Positions 1,829 through 8,424 of a stretch of DNA of 12,068 bases are shown here, piece by piece (the stretch's first letter is position 1; each line of letters begins with the position of its first letter). Source of the DNA: Oscillospiraceae bacterium (GTDB lineage: Bacteria; Bacillota_A; Clostridia; Oscillospirales; Oscillospiraceae); assembly GCA_017381835.1 (NCBI GenBank), contig JAFOBK010000118.1, forward strand, positions 1 to 12,068, given 5' to 3'. Position numbers and translations under genes: made by a program. The notes under the pieces were generated by a model. That model did no database searches. It was given only the letters and a program-made list of their open reading frames with translations, and was not told where the DNA came from.

Positions 1829-2231
1829 GGCAATCCTCTTTCTTTAGCCCACTTCGCTCCATGATCGCCTGCAAAATTTCCTCATCCGCAGGACAGAAAT
1901 CATACTGGGGAATCTCAGCAGGGGTGACCCAACGGGCATCGTTATGTTCCAGCAGACGGATCTCCCCTTCTGCGATCACCGCATTAAACAAAATCAGGTG
2001 AACGGTCAAATCCGGATATTCATGGATTACTTCCATAAAAACATCCAAGGGTTTGACGGTAATATCCAGTTCTTCCCGGCATTCGCGGATCAGAGCCTCT
2101 TCCCTGCTCTCACCGGGTTCCACTTTACCGCCCACAAATTCCCACAGCAGCGCTCTGGCCTTATGGGCAGGTCTTTGGCATGCTAAAAAACGGTTTTTAT
2201 CCCAAATAAGGGCAGCTACAACTTCAGTCAT
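1821..2231 (-). CDS. Nudix hydrolase, MutT-like (8-oxo-dGTP diphosphatase type)
   Basis: A protein of 136 residues carrying a complete Nudix box at 35-57: G35, E41, then R49-E50-C51-R52-E53-E54, the magnesium-binding helix. The usual aliphatic residue is Cys51 and the usual late Gly is Asp56, both tolerated. The WEFVGGK approach and the length match MutT-type enzymes, which clear oxidised dGTP before it enters DNA. A GTG at 2240 would add three residues, but I prefer ATG at 2231 because AGGTG sits 6 nt upstream. With this start the gene overlaps the udg stop by 8 bp (ATGACTGA), the same arrangement as at its own 3' end with the permease. Neighbouring udg supports a role in DNA maintenance. 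The exact substrate is inferred. Confidence 0.9.
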   Translation of the reverse strand: MTEVVAALIWDKNRFLACQRPAHKARALLWEFVGGKVEPGESREEALIRECREELDITVKPLDVFMEVIHEYPDLTVHLILFNAVIAEGEIRLLEHNDARWVTPAEIPQYDFCPADEEILQAIMERSGLKKEDCRG

Positions 2232-2802
2232 TTTGAACACCTAAATCTGCATGTACTTCTTTATACTTTTCGCGAATGCTCAGCAGGTCATCAAAGGTTT
2301 CCGGACGCTTACTGAGATCCCGCAGCAGCGCAGAGGGATGATAGATCGCGGTCATCCATACTCCGTTACTGCAAAACCAGTTGCCATGCTGCTGGGTAAT
2401 CCGGAAATCAGGATCAATCAGCTTTTTCGCTGCAACACGTCCCAGGCAAACAATGATTTTCGGCCGGATCAGTGCTACCTGGTTTCGTAGGTAGGAAATG
2501 CAGGCCTCCTGCTCTTCTTCCTGGGGATCCCGATTTCTGGGAGGGCGGCATTTGACGATATTAGCGATATAGCAATTATGTCTGCCCAGGTCAATGATAG
2601 ACAGCATATCATCCAAAAGTTTACCGGCAGCGCCCACAAAGGGTTCACCCTGCAGGTCCTCCTGCTCACCGGGGCCTTCACCAACGAACATAATATCCGC
2701 ATTTCGGGGGCCTACACCAAATACTACATTGGTACGGGTCTTGCAGAGTTCACATTTTGTGCAGCTCATACATTGCTGCGAAAGAGCTTCCCAATTCAGC
2801 AT
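2224..2802 (-). CDS. Type-4 uracil-DNA glycosylase (4Fe-4S)
   Basis: At 192 residues this matches the family-4 uracil-DNA glycosylases, which cut uracil out of DNA to leave an abasic site. Four cysteines expected to hold the [4Fe-4S] cluster are present: C14 and C17 (CTKC), C85 (KCRPP) and C101 (EACISYL). The uracil-pocket motif GEGPGEQED is at 41-49, [10 protein letters not shown] follows at 55-64, and the DNA-intercalating HPSALLR motif is at 155-161. The start ATG at 2802 lies 1 nt after the dac stop, and its ribosome site AAGGAG lies inside the dac coding end. The abasic sites it makes could be cut by the exonuclease III homologue encoded in the divergent operon (7274-8026). The family call is very secure. 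Confidence 0.95.
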
Positions 2803-2803
2803 C

Positions 2804-4195
2804 TTAACGGCTCCTTCTTTGATATCTTCTGTGCTGCTTAAGCTTTCTTCTACGGATCATCCGGAAAATGATGGGTCTGCCAAACAGAAGAACGATTAGC
2901 AAACCTACAATCACCGCTACAATAATCAGAACAGCAAACGGATTTCCATCACTATGGACAACCGTCTCATCCAAAGTAACTTTTTCCTGCACCGCAACAC
3001 TATTGGATGCAAACATCTCTGCCTGAGCAAGGCAGGTATTTTCGTACCAAACTTCAACCTTTGCAATCTGATCGTCTTTCTGAACAGGTGCCTTGATTGC
3101 TTGCTCCTGGATGAACCGGTAAGTCAGATTTGCATCCGTTGCTTTCAAGGGTAAAGAAGTAGATACATCTACCTTTACATATCCGGTTACATCACAGTCA
3201 CCGTTCTCAACGGAGAATTGTTCCAAAATCTGATTATTATGAAGAACGTTTGCATGACCAAATTCATCAAACCCCTTATCCAGCAGAATGCGTGCTTCCT
3301 TATAACAGCCTTCTTCACCGTTGGGATTGATCTCAGAAGTAGAACCCATAATGATACTGATCAGCTGGATATCATTCTTTTCAGCCAGAACCACGATATT
3401 ATTCTCACCCTCGCCGGTTAAGCCCATTCGGCTGCCGATTGCGCGACTATCGAAGTGATTGGAGCCAAGGTTTCTGTTAAAGAGGAAATTTTCACTGGAA
3501 ACTTTTCTCTCTTCTGCCATGTTTGTAGCAGGAATACGGACAACATAAGTACAGAATGCCTCTTCAAAGTCTTCATTCTCCATGCCCGCAACGACAATTT
3601 TCGCAACATCTCTAGCGGTTGTTAACTGCAAATCATCACTTAAGCCATGCACATTGACAAAGTTTGTGCCAGTACAGCCAATCTCAGCGGCCTTCTCATT
3701 CATCATTTGCACAAAGGCTTCCTGGCTTCCGGCAACATGGTCTGCAAGAATCGTGGCGGCAATGTTGGCGCCCTTGACCATCAGACAGTACATCAGATCC
3801 TGAACGGACAGTTCCTCCCCCGCCTGCAAATCAATACCTCGGTTCAGAGAATACATGGTGTCCAGTACTTCCTGCTTTACGGTAACCCGTTCACTCATGT
3901 CTGCGTTTTCCGCAACAATTAAGCAAGTCATGATTTTAGCAAGACCGGCAGGTGAAAACTGTGCATCCGGATTATCGGCATAGACAACCACATCATTGGT
4001 AATATCAAAAAGGAGCGCAGAAACGGTTTTTACCAAGCGTTCATCCTTGCTGTCCAACGGTCTTTGACCGTCAATGGTCCTGCAGCCCTGCACTACAGAC
4101 ATATCATTCTCTGCAGTAGCACCAACCGGTATAGTCAGCAGCATCAGCGCAAGGATACCGCAGATAAGCCGACGCATAAATCCTGTTTTTTTCAT
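2804..4195 (-). CDS. PBP5-like D-alanyl-D-alanine carboxypeptidase homologue, probably catalytically inactive
   Basis: A 463-residue exported protein with a signal peptide (1-28, ATA cleavage), a peptidase S11-like domain (about 50-310), a beta-rich C-terminal domain (about 315-410), one membrane helix (419-438) and a very basic tail ending RRYQRRSR. The order fits DacA/DacF enzymes that trim D-Ala from peptidoglycan pentapeptide. The active site does not: the SxxK motif reads G84-L-A-K87, SxN reads G142-A-N144, and KTG reads R256-M-G258. Without the acylating serine the normal reaction is impossible, so a binding, scaffolding or sensing role is likely. The frame is intact, which argues against simple decay. 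ATG at 4195 has GAGGG 6 nt upstream. It is the first gene of the operon driven by the promoter at 4265-4293. The fold call is secure and the inactivity is a strong inference. Confidence 0.88.
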
Positions 4196-4215: not shown

Positions 4216-4234
4216 TGTCGGGTCTTGTCCGACA
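4216..4234. promoter_or_regulatory. Inverted repeat over the -35 box; candidate operator or leader hairpin
   Basis: TGTCGG (4216-4221) and CCGACA (4229-4234) form a perfect 6-bp inverted repeat with a 7-nt centre. It covers the -35 element of the rightward promoter and lies in the leader of the dac message, so it could be a repressor site or an RNA hairpin. No protein is identified as its binder. Confidence 0.4.
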
Positions 4235-4253
4235 GTAAAAATTCGTGTATAAT
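4225..4253 (+). promoter_or_regulatory. Sigma-A promoter of the rightward comEA-TCS-exoA operon
   Basis: TTGTCC (4225-4230) and a perfect TATAAT (4248-4253) are separated by 17 bp, with a start expected near 4260. Its -35 box is weaker than that of the opposing promoter and lies in the dac leader. Confidence 0.75.
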
Positions 4254-4264
4254 ATTTCTGCAGT

Positions 4265-4293
4265 ATTATATCAGTTTTTCGTTTTCTAGTCAA
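4265..4293 (-). promoter_or_regulatory. Sigma-A promoter of the leftward dac operon (extended -10)
   Basis: On the minus strand, -35 TTGACT (4288-4293) and -10 TATAAT (4265-4270) are 17 bp apart, with TGA directly before the -10 as an extended element. Transcription should start near 4258. It overlaps the rightward promoter at 4225-4253. Confidence 0.85.
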
Positions 4294-6760: not shown

Positions 6761-7260
6761 AGAAACTAGCGATACTTTTGTGCTGCGCTGTGTTTCTGCA
6801 AATCTTATTGGGATGCGGTGCAGCCAAAGATGATTATAAAGAACCGGTGAATTTCTATTACGAGAAAACCAATGTTTCTTATAATTCCTCATCCGGTGTG
6901 ATTGAAAAAGAAACCCGGGAGGGGTCTGTCTTTCAAGGCAATTTAACCGCATTCCTGCATTCCTATTTACGCGGGCCTGAATCCGATATACTTCAGAGTA
7001 TCATTCCCTCCGACGTATATCTTGTTTCATGCGAAATTATAGACAATACCGCCTATATAACCCTCAGTTCTCAGTTCGCAAAGCTTTCCGGTGTCAGGCT
7101 TACAACCGCTTGCAGTGCACTGCTGCTGACAATGCATGATTATGTGGGGATCGACACTTTGTCTATCCGGGCAAAGGATGTTCAAATTGATGATAAAAAT
7201 ACGATTATCCTCAAAATGGAGGATGTCATTCTGATTGATGCAGCCGAAAATGTCCAATAA
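6757..7260 (+). CDS. Lipoprotein with GerMN domain
   Basis: A protein of 167 residues. The lipoprotein signal peptide ends in LLGC with the lipid-bearing C20. The rest (about 55-155) matches the GerMN (sporulation/spore germination) domain: LTAFLHSYLRGP, a variable strand, VSCEIIDNTAYITLSSQF and TTACSALLLTMHDYVGIDTLSIR. GerMN domains occur in spore GerM and in the actinobacterial lipoprotein LpqB, which is encoded with the MtrAB two-component system. This gene also follows a regulator-kinase pair, with a 4-bp ATGA overlap, so a role as an outside-surface accessory to the kinase is a reasonable inference. The ribosome site GGAGG lies at the end of the kinase gene. It is short for the family, with a single GerMN copy. 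The domain call rests on pattern memory, not on a search. Confidence 0.8.
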   Translation: MKKLAILLCCAVFLQILLGCGAAKDDYKEPVNFYYEKTNVSYNSSSGVIEKETREGSVFQGNLTAFLHSYLRGPESDILQSIIPSDVYLVSCEIIDNTAYITLSSQFAKLSGVRLTTACSALLLTMHDYVGIDTLSIRAKDVQIDDKNTIILKMEDVILIDAAENVQ

Positions 7261-7273
7261 GAAGGTGAATCAC

Positions 7274-8026
7274 ATGCGTTTTATTTCCTGGAATGTAAAT
7301 GGTCTTCGGGCTTGTATGCAAAAGGGATTTTCTGATTACTTTGAAAGCGAATGTCCAGACTTTTTCTGCCTGCAGGAAACAAAATTGCAGGCAGGTCAGA
7401 TTGATCTTCAGTTAAATGGTTATGAACAATACTGGAACTATGCCCAAAAGAAAGGTTATTCCGGTACGGCCATTTTTACCAAACACACTCCCCTATCTGT
7501 ATACTATGGAATGGGAATTGAGGAGTTGGATACCGAAGGCCGTCTGATTACGCTGGAATATGAGAATTTCTTTTTGGTAACCTGCTATACGCCCAATGCC
7601 CAGCGAGAACTCGCGCGACTTGATTTTCGTATGACATGGGAAAAGGCTTTTGCAGATTATCTGTGCACACTTGACGCAAAAAAGCCGGTAATTGTATGCG
7701 GTGACTTAAATGTCGCCCATCAGGAAATCGACTTAAAGAATCCTAAGTCCAATAAGGGCAGTGCAGGATTTTCCGATGAAGAGCGAGGCTGTTTCTCGAA
7801 CCTTCTGAATCGCGGCTTTATTGATACATTCCGGTATCTCTATCCCGATGTTACCGGTATGTATTCCTGGTGGAGTTATATGTACAAAGCCCGTCAAAAC
7901 AATGCAGGATGGCGCATTGACTACTTCCTTGTATCTGATCGGCTGAAAGACCGTATTGACAACGCTTCTATCCACACAGATATTTTGGGTTCTGATCATT
8001 GTCCCGTCAGTTTGGATTTAAAGTAA
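7274..8026 (+). CDS. xth: Exodeoxyribonuclease III / AP endonuclease
   Basis: At 250 residues it has the full length and motif set of the ExoIII/ExoA (EEP superfamily) enzymes: WNVNGLRA with N7, LQETKL with metal ligand E35, CYTPN with Y105, GDLNVAH with D144 and N146, the WRIDYFLVSDRL block, and SDHCPVSL with the catalytic D241-H242 pair. It cuts DNA 5' of abasic sites and removes 3' blocking ends in base-excision repair, which fits the uracil glycosylase in the divergent operon. Upstream in-frame ATGs (7235 and 7250) lie inside the GerMN gene; ATG at 7274 is chosen because AAGGTG sits 6 nt before it and the protein then begins directly with the conserved MRFISWNVNG. It is the last gene of the rightward operon and is followed by a strong hairpin terminator. 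Confidence 0.95.
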   Translation: MRFISWNVNGLRACMQKGFSDYFESECPDFFCLQETKLQAGQIDLQLNGYEQYWNYAQKKGYSGTAIFTKHTPLSVYYGMGIEELDTEGRLITLEYENFFLVTCYTPNAQRELARLDFRMTWEKAFADYLCTLDAKKPVIVCGDLNVAHQEIDLKNPKSNKGSAGFSDEERGCFSNLLNRGFIDTFRYLYPDVTGMYSWWSYMYKARQNNAGWRIDYFLVSDRLKDRIDNASIHTDILGSDHCPVSLDLK

Positions 8027-8061: not shown

Positions 8062-8424
8062 TTATATAATGCTGTCATTTAAACCAAAGCTAACTGCAAT
8101 GGCGCTATTTACCATTGTCATCTGCTTCTCATCCAAATGCCCCATATGCTCCCGAAGACGGCGTTTGTCAATTGTCCGAATCTGCTCCAAAAGAATCACA
8201 GAATCTTTACTCAGGCCTACGCTGCCGCCAGGAATATTAATATGGGTGGGAAGCCTTGCTTTCCCGGTTTGACTGGTAATCGCTGCTGCAATGACAGTTG
8301 GAGAATGCCTGTTTCCGGTATCATTCTGAATAATCAGAACCGGGCGGGTGCCTCCCTGCTCACTGCCGACTACCGGCGACAGATCAGCATAATAAATATC
8401 ACCGCGCTTAACTGTACTATCCAT
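8062..8424 (-). CDS. mazF: MazF/PemK-family endoribonuclease toxin, without an adjacent antitoxin
   Basis: At 120 residues it is very similar to Bacillus EndoA/MazF as I recall it: [21 protein letters not shown] at the start, RPVLIIQND with the catalytic R27, AAAITSQ with T50, LPTH, and the dimer helix [17 protein letters not shown]. MazF toxins cut RNA at short sequences when the antitoxin is removed. The usual small antitoxin gene directly upstream is absent: only 143 bp separate this gene from the lipoprotein, too short for an 80-90-residue antitoxin, and no such protein is readable there. The ATG at 8424 has only GGAG at 11 nt, inside a small hairpin, so translation may be weak. It is probably the last gene of the nnrD operon. 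Catalytic residues look intact. Confidence 0.93.

Follow-up and report, generated by a model that had tools for sequence, protein, structure and literature searches.

A probable S11 pseudo-D,D-carboxypeptidase, old and conserved in its clade, encoded at an Oscillospiraceae locus

Introduction

Penicillin-binding proteins (PBPs) are usually recognised by three motifs, and the locus described here raises the question of what becomes of such a protein when the motifs are altered: whether it is a decaying gene, an enzyme with a rebuilt site, or a protein maintained for something other than catalysis. The stretch of DNA analysed (the window) comprises 12,068 bp of contig JAFOBK010000118.1 in assembly GCA_017381835.1 of an Oscillospiraceae bacterium, and the gene in question (positions 2804..4195, minus strand), identified by its open reading frame (ORF), Pfam matches, alignment and structure model, encodes a 463 amino-acid S11 pseudo-D,D-carboxypeptidase, hereafter the window PBP. 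A first-pass annotation, made from the sequence alone, had described a carboxypeptidase homologue with all three motifs broken and proposed a conserved pseudoenzyme. Taken together, the comparisons reported below indicate that the window PBP is probably an S11 pseudoenzyme that is both old and conserved: its sequence reads as that of a dead enzyme, the state of its clade suggests that it is maintained, and its function is one that we infer.

Results

The three motifs and the protein architecture

In the minus-strand reading frame, GLAK (residues 84-87, 3935..3946) stands at the place of SxxK, with the nucleophile Ser changed to Gly (codon GGT) and the Lys retained, GAN (residues 142-144, 3764..3772) stands at the place of SxN, with the Ser gone and the Asn retained, and RMG (residues 256-258, 3422..3430) stands at the place of KTG. 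The three motifs were in register with SxxK, SxN and KTG in the alignment with 120 homologues, and the same register was obtained in alignments to the solved enzymes 4k91 and 3it9. Hence none of the features of an active S11 D,D-carboxypeptidase (the SxxK Ser, SxN and KTG) is present in the window PBP. The third motif has a history of its own: of the 86 homologues with Ser that the protein searches gave (these sisters being every Ser-bearing P row, near and distant), 85 have Arg at KTG position 1, and by this distribution it is a trait of the lineage, the clade's own losses being those of the Ser in SxxK and the Ser in SxN. KTG damage as a hallmark of the window PBP was consequently rejected. 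The first-pass reading stood for SxxK and SxN and was overstated for the third motif, although Thr is further changed to Met there.

The ORF starts with ATG and has zero internal stops. Pfam Peptidase_S11 covered residues 55-285 (E 5.4e-40, 137.8 bits vs a curated cut-off of 27.6) and PBP5_C residues 312-400 (E 7.6e-9), and the structure model predicted a fold of the PBP5/PBP6 type; the protein thus passes the S11 profile cut-off and has a PBP5-like fold with a C-terminal PBP5_C, while the cut-offs of the named NCBIfam S11 equivalogs (DacA, DacD and the like) were missed, with a top score of 110 bits vs 610. On the minus strand, a signal-like N-terminus was read from the sequence at residues 1-26 (4118..4195; model helix 3-21), a C-terminal membrane helix lies at residues ca. 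419-441 (2873..2941; model helix 419-459 and hydropathy test), and a basic C-terminal tail was seen in the sequence at residues 445-463 (2807..2863). As first annotated, the altered motifs lie in an intact, full-length frame with signal-like N-terminus, helix and basic tail. The gene product is probably an exported, membrane-anchored S11 pseudoenzyme.

A clade of relatives without the nucleophile

Two protein searches returned 428 and 453 matches, and the best 120 of each amounted to 133 distinct proteins. Among the best 120 together with the window PBP, 75 rows had Ser at position 84, 41 had Gly and 4 had Asn, with one gap. A single clade (support 100) held 34 of the 41 Gly rows, including the window PBP, plus the gap row P0013, and was joined by P0121 and P0122, which gives 36 sequences including the window PBP when P0013, a fragment excluded from the clade counts and from the 164-row tree, is left aside. 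Among the matches listed, the 35 database proteins of the clade are 45–97% identical to the window PBP, and the trees placed zero Ser-bearing rows inside it. Gly occupied site 84 in 19/19 matches of at least 51% identity that span it (P0013 being without the site), and P0001, a cluster of 23 sequences, is 97% identical to the window PBP. Sequencing error and recent decay were rejected on the grounds of P0001 and the 36-member clade.

The clade members are near full length (453–483 amino acids), and a hydrophobic helix (hydropathy test) with a basic tail was found in 36/36, with 7.2 changes per column across the 32 rows kept. All 36 keep Pro82, Ala83, Lys87, Glu127 and Gly258, and 35 keep Asn144. 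Position 142, that of the SxN Ser, is Gly in 28, Ala in 7, Asn in one and Ser in none; a displaced SxN Ser was rejected, Ser being found at the middle position in 6/36 and at the SxN Ser position in none. Position 256 is Arg in 29 and Lys in 7, hence basic throughout, and position 257 is Met in 13, Thr in 11, Ile in 9 and Val in 3. Aligned across the relatives, both Ser losses are clade-wide; the Arg is not specific to the clade, and position 257 varies. Catalytic residues are lost in a clade that is otherwise intact, the mark of a maintained pseudoenzyme, and the proposal of a conserved pseudoenzyme keeping the fold was supported by a clade that is free of Ser-bearing rows, near full length and anchored, and by the PBP5/PBP6 model.

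A motif gained ahead of the KTG strand

Comparison of columns revealed a clade-specific motif, NLGSNH (residues 242-247, 3455..3472, minus strand), which precedes the KTG strand. Conservation in the 34-row clade set is 97% for N242 and 100% for L243-H247, and none of these letters exceeds 50% among 46 sister sequences that have the Ser. Between these 34 clade members and 46 sisters, 20 columns were gained (at least 94% of the clade, at most 50% of the sisters), Gly84 included, and 7 of the 20 fall within 239-247, namely F239 and NLGSNH. Such clustering of gains immediately ahead of the KTG strand would favour a new role more than simple decay.

The locus and its orthologues

The next gene in the putative operon, of the uracil-DNA glycosylase superfamily (2224..2802, minus strand; PF03167, E 1.1e-35), served as a syntenic marker. 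The 57 loci read, in sets of 31, 11 and 15, were the best-scoring of each search and came from short stretches; a relative of the glycosylase was in the stretch at 55 (29/31, 11/11 and 15/15), the exceptions being L108 and L090. The divergent HHH gene had a relative in the stretch at 53 loci, and the response regulator at 46. Position 84 was Ser at 53 loci and Gly at four (L088, L125, L166 and L167). With the Ser retained by 53 of the 57 orthologues at loci of this kind, an enzyme was in all likelihood converted into a pseudoenzyme on the spot. The residue counts for locus orthologues refer to 42 of these, including L088 and L125 and without L154-L168, which were read for motifs only.

The first-pass annotation had held that recent decay or error would be indicated if near relatives carried intact motifs at this locus. 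The 53 Ser-bearing orthologues count on that side; all of them, however, are at most 41% identical to the window PBP, and only Gly was seen above 50%. Among the matches listed, the nearest Ser-bearing proteins, P0029 and P0030 (locus unplaced), are 48–49% identical. Because above 50% identity only Gly was seen, the Ser loss is, judged by sequence divergence, old. Matches to the window PBP were found in 5/394 genomes sampled from an order (1e-60), in 34/400 from a family (1e-55) and in 112/136 genomes of one genus (1e-60), none of the last above 41% identity; the window PheS is 80–85% identical in three members of the genus (G282, G126 and G332), and a fourth member compared, G368, gave only a partial 40% match.

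Order and number of losses

A 164-row quick tree, from which rows at least 88% identical to a kept row had been removed (181 to 164), was rooted on canonical S11 paralogues, and 37 of its 161 inner branches had support below 80. The 80-row tree for approximately unbiased (AU) tests was thinned and likewise quick, its outgroup not one side of any branch, and the long-branch rows L090, L108, L126, L095, L115, L102 and L120 were out of it and in the 164-row tree; deep branches of both are partly unresolved. In the 164-row tree nearly all of the basal rows had SxxK/SxN/KTG (L115 has SxG), the change of Lys to Arg at the third motif comes later (4 changes at minimum), and the Ser84 losses are nested within. 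The minimum number of nucleophile changes was six, five of them forced by well-supported branches, from which we infer about five or six losses of Ser84 in the family.

These losses concern the window clade; a remote five-member clade (P0096, P0098, P0103, P0112 and P0115; GK/GN/RTG); P0044 with P0047 (GK/AN/RAG), which could reflect either two losses or a single loss followed by a regain, the neighbouring P0041 and P0049 being Ser-bearing, yet with the SxN Ser gone too; an Asn group of P0067, P0077 and P0084, joined by P0075 in the 120-homologue tree (NK/SN/RPA); and the locus orthologues L088 and L125 (PSGMNK/SAN/KTG). A single Ser loss was rejected by the AU test (p 1e-119 with all 15 Gly rows, 2e-53 without L088 and L125), the groups having been chosen after an earlier tree had been inspected. 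For a coupled loss of the two serines (of SxxK and of SxN) there were just 5 independent pairs; under nearly all pairings 2 of them changed in the same direction and the others showed no difference. Loss of the KTG Thr had no association with loss of the SxxK Ser.

L166 and L167, outside the tree, also have the PSGMNK form, and with L088 and L125 they make up a second kind at the locus, which keeps SAN and KTG and has Gly at the nucleophile and a Ser one residue earlier; by its sequence the activity of this kind is uncertain. Elsewhere in Clostridia, S11 proteins with an altered SxxK region, encoded on the minus strand, were seen at L013 (= L084), L071, L009, L081, L083 and L042, the variants being CGFLPR, VGNVMK, STVK with LNAG, AALLN, SLVD and CGYMAK, in distant proteins whose register is less sure. 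As judged from such motifs, S11 pseudoenzymes may be commoner than annotated.

Two-component system, promoters and neighbouring genes

A tie to the divergently encoded two-component system had been suggested. Among 8 related genomes compared, all keeping the PBP, the window histidine kinase had strong matches of 51–67% identity in G282, G126 and G711 and no match at E ≤1e-60 in G764, G807, G809, G817 and G776, counts for which genome completeness is not stated. Ser-bearing orthologues adjoin the same regulator, and these observations do not support the suggested tie. The nucleophile-lost loci of known context (the window, L088, L125, L166 and L167) have the regulator at 5/5, as do many Ser-bearing loci, from which nothing follows. 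At L091, L117-L120, L154, L156, L159 and L164 the short stretch gave an exoA or pemK relative in place of a relative of the regulator, a pattern that deletion or relocation of the two-component block would produce; the kinase was unmatched at 1e-60 in five genomes among those with such loci.

Upstream of the PBP gene a promoter-like TTGACT-17-TATAAT with TG before the -10 (4265..4293, minus strand) matched the consensus at 11/12 positions, and a divergent promoter-like site, also found by consensus match, lies at 4225-4253 (plus strand); four such sites were found in the region vs 1.4 in shuffles. These opposite-strand sites occupy the interval from the PBP gene to the HHH gene (4225-4293) with 11 bp separating them, and by this arrangement transcription of the two genes could mutually interfere.

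A MazF/PemK-family gene (8062-8424, minus strand; PF02452) has relatives 88–90% identical at five loci (L117, L120, L154, L159 and L164). Just upstream of it no clear antitoxin was seen among ORFs of at least 80 amino acids, shorter ORFs not having been looked for. One neighbour gene in the window (7235-8026) gave no plasmid match, as one gene a weak test of plasmid origin.

Discussion

By its motifs the window PBP is very probably catalytically dead, and the clade makes it likely that the protein is maintained for a function. The sources cited for known mutants, each in the portion consulted, report that Ser44Gly in E. coli PBP5 abolished penicillin binding and carboxypeptidase activity, with no complementation (PMC2909392), and that DacA S73G lost all activity (PMC9430164). 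Because the Ser-to-Gly change in PBP5 abolishes both, the window PBP should, by analogy, neither cleave D-Ala-D-Ala nor bind penicillin covalently. Should mutant results extend to this family, the RTG sisters would already be weak as carboxypeptidases while retaining penicillin binding, and the window clade would have lost both abilities.

The ancestor would have been a D,D-carboxypeptidase of active type, encoded at a locus of this kind, whose catalytic residues were lost stepwise, with KTG Lys to Arg in an ancestor common to the Ser-bearing relatives, and the SxxK Ser and SxN Ser lost and the KTG Thr changed later. Two further S11 proteins with intact SxxK, SxN and KTG were found in 8/8 related genomes (16/16 proteins; one of them, L143, ends shortly after KTG), and the loss of catalysis may have been tolerated owing to such canonical enzymes. 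The retained pocket and NLGSNH might hold a stem peptide, or a partner from wall synthesis, with no turnover, and next to the pair of active-type S11 enzymes found in related genomes the protein could serve as a scaffold, a decoy or a regulator. This mode, binding of peptidoglycan or a partner, is put forward tentatively. A bolder version, in which a fast-evolving S11 locus is a repeated source of dead carboxypeptidases and the clade's site was rebuilt on NLGSNH as a beta-lactam-insensitive receptor that binds wall peptides or a partner non-covalently, is rather unlikely.

Several observations weigh against a maintained binding protein. The pocket is incompletely kept, Thr257 being retained in only 11/36 clade members, and Asn236, present in 42/42 locus orthologues, is kept by only 12/36. 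Seventeen columns conserved in the sisters are lost in the clade, spread more widely than the gains. Over 21 pairs of 7 genomes (G807 was excluded for a fragmentary paralogue), the locus PBP diverges fastest, with a median identity of 40% (34–55) vs 67% (62–73) and 65% (59–72) for the canonical paralogues, which fits weaker constraint or a new role. The context of the clade is known from the window alone, and the paralogues were counted in related genomes outside the clade. Finally, the consulted part of PMC2909392 describes PBP5 S44G as no longer enriched at the septum or midcell, its authors suggesting reduced substrate affinity, and this delocalisation speaks against a simple stem-peptide receptor lacking the Ser.

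Some of these points would suit slow neutral decay, in which redundancy with two canonical S11 enzymes lifts selection and the gene is becoming a pseudogene: both enzymes are encoded in 8/8 genomes, the locus copy diverges fast, motif losses recur and the 17 sister-conserved columns are gone. Yet 36 proteins remain near full length in spite of the substitutions accumulated, with anchor and tail in every one, numerous positions that never vary and a motif that has become fixed in the clade, and decay seems quite improbable, though the protein searches list predicted proteins and broken copies would be under-reported. The same new motif could alternatively be read as a moved nucleophile, for example with invariant Ser245 doing chemistry with His247 in an active, rebuilt site; both are invariant in the 34-row set and His247 in 36/36, each occurs in at most 50% of the 46 sisters, the segment runs into the KTG strand, and migrated catalytic residues have a precedent in other pseudoenzymes, at least in the consulted part of PMC10211241. 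Since NLGSNH lies 9–14 residues ahead of R256 and may sit outside the cleft, and the SxN Ser is gone as well, we regard an active rebuilt site as very unlikely.

An accessory sensor, binding wall peptides or a drug and modulating the divergent kinase, would agree with the divergent neighbours, promoter-like sites within 69 bp and the regulator relatives in the short stretches; with the kinase unmatched in five of the eight PBP-keeping genomes, Ser-bearing orthologues at the same place and the clade's context coming from the window only, it is the least probable of the explanations considered. Regulation by pairing overlaps with the preferred reading of a binding pseudoenzyme: in a complex with an active S11 enzyme or a synthase, the protein would steer its partner, a behaviour that degenerate M23 proteins may show. 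Canonical S11 paralogues are available in related genomes, and the Csd1-Csd2 heterodimer has a degenerate partner, as far as the consulted text of PMC5053510 goes; we consider such pairing, argued by analogy, unlikely.

The old, conserved pseudoenzyme favoured here exposes a family profile as blind to single motifs, as Pfam scores the window PBP far over the cut-off as a carboxypeptidase, and shows the risk of listing genes of this sort among D,D-carboxypeptidases or targets of beta-lactams. The clade, nested among Ser-bearing orthologues, would provide natural live/dead pairs by which catalytic and structural roles of S11 proteins could be separated. Among the papers listed in searches of the open-access literature, no earlier reports of S11 or PBP pseudoenzymes were seen.

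Comparison with known systems

The window PBP resembles the PBP5/PBP6/DacA type (E. coli PBP6 3itb and PBP5 1nzo; B. subtilis 3mfd) in predicted fold, in Peptidase_S11 with PBP5_C, and in keeping the SxxK Lys, the SxN Asn and the KTG Gly, and differs in being without the nucleophile Ser and the SxN Ser and in the replacement of the KTG Lys and Thr. Its anchor is a hydrophobic C-terminal helix with a basic tail, whereas that of PBP5 is amphipathic according to the consulted part of PMC2909392. With the laboratory mutant PBP5(S44G) of E. coli it shares Ser-to-Gly at the nucleophile, there by design; in the window PBP the change is natural and clade-wide, and is accompanied by the SxN Ser loss and the new motif. 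The RTG-type locus orthologues (e.g. L091 and L117) are alike in kind of locus, anchor type and Arg at KTG position 1, but keep the SxxK nucleophile Ser and SxN. As a non-catalytic member of a wall-hydrolase family, the window PBP is comparable to the degenerate peptidoglycan hydrolase Csd2; NlpD and EnvC are degenerate peptidoglycan hydrolases as well, and all three, unlike the window PBP, belong to the M23/LytM family and have no penicillin-binding ancestry.
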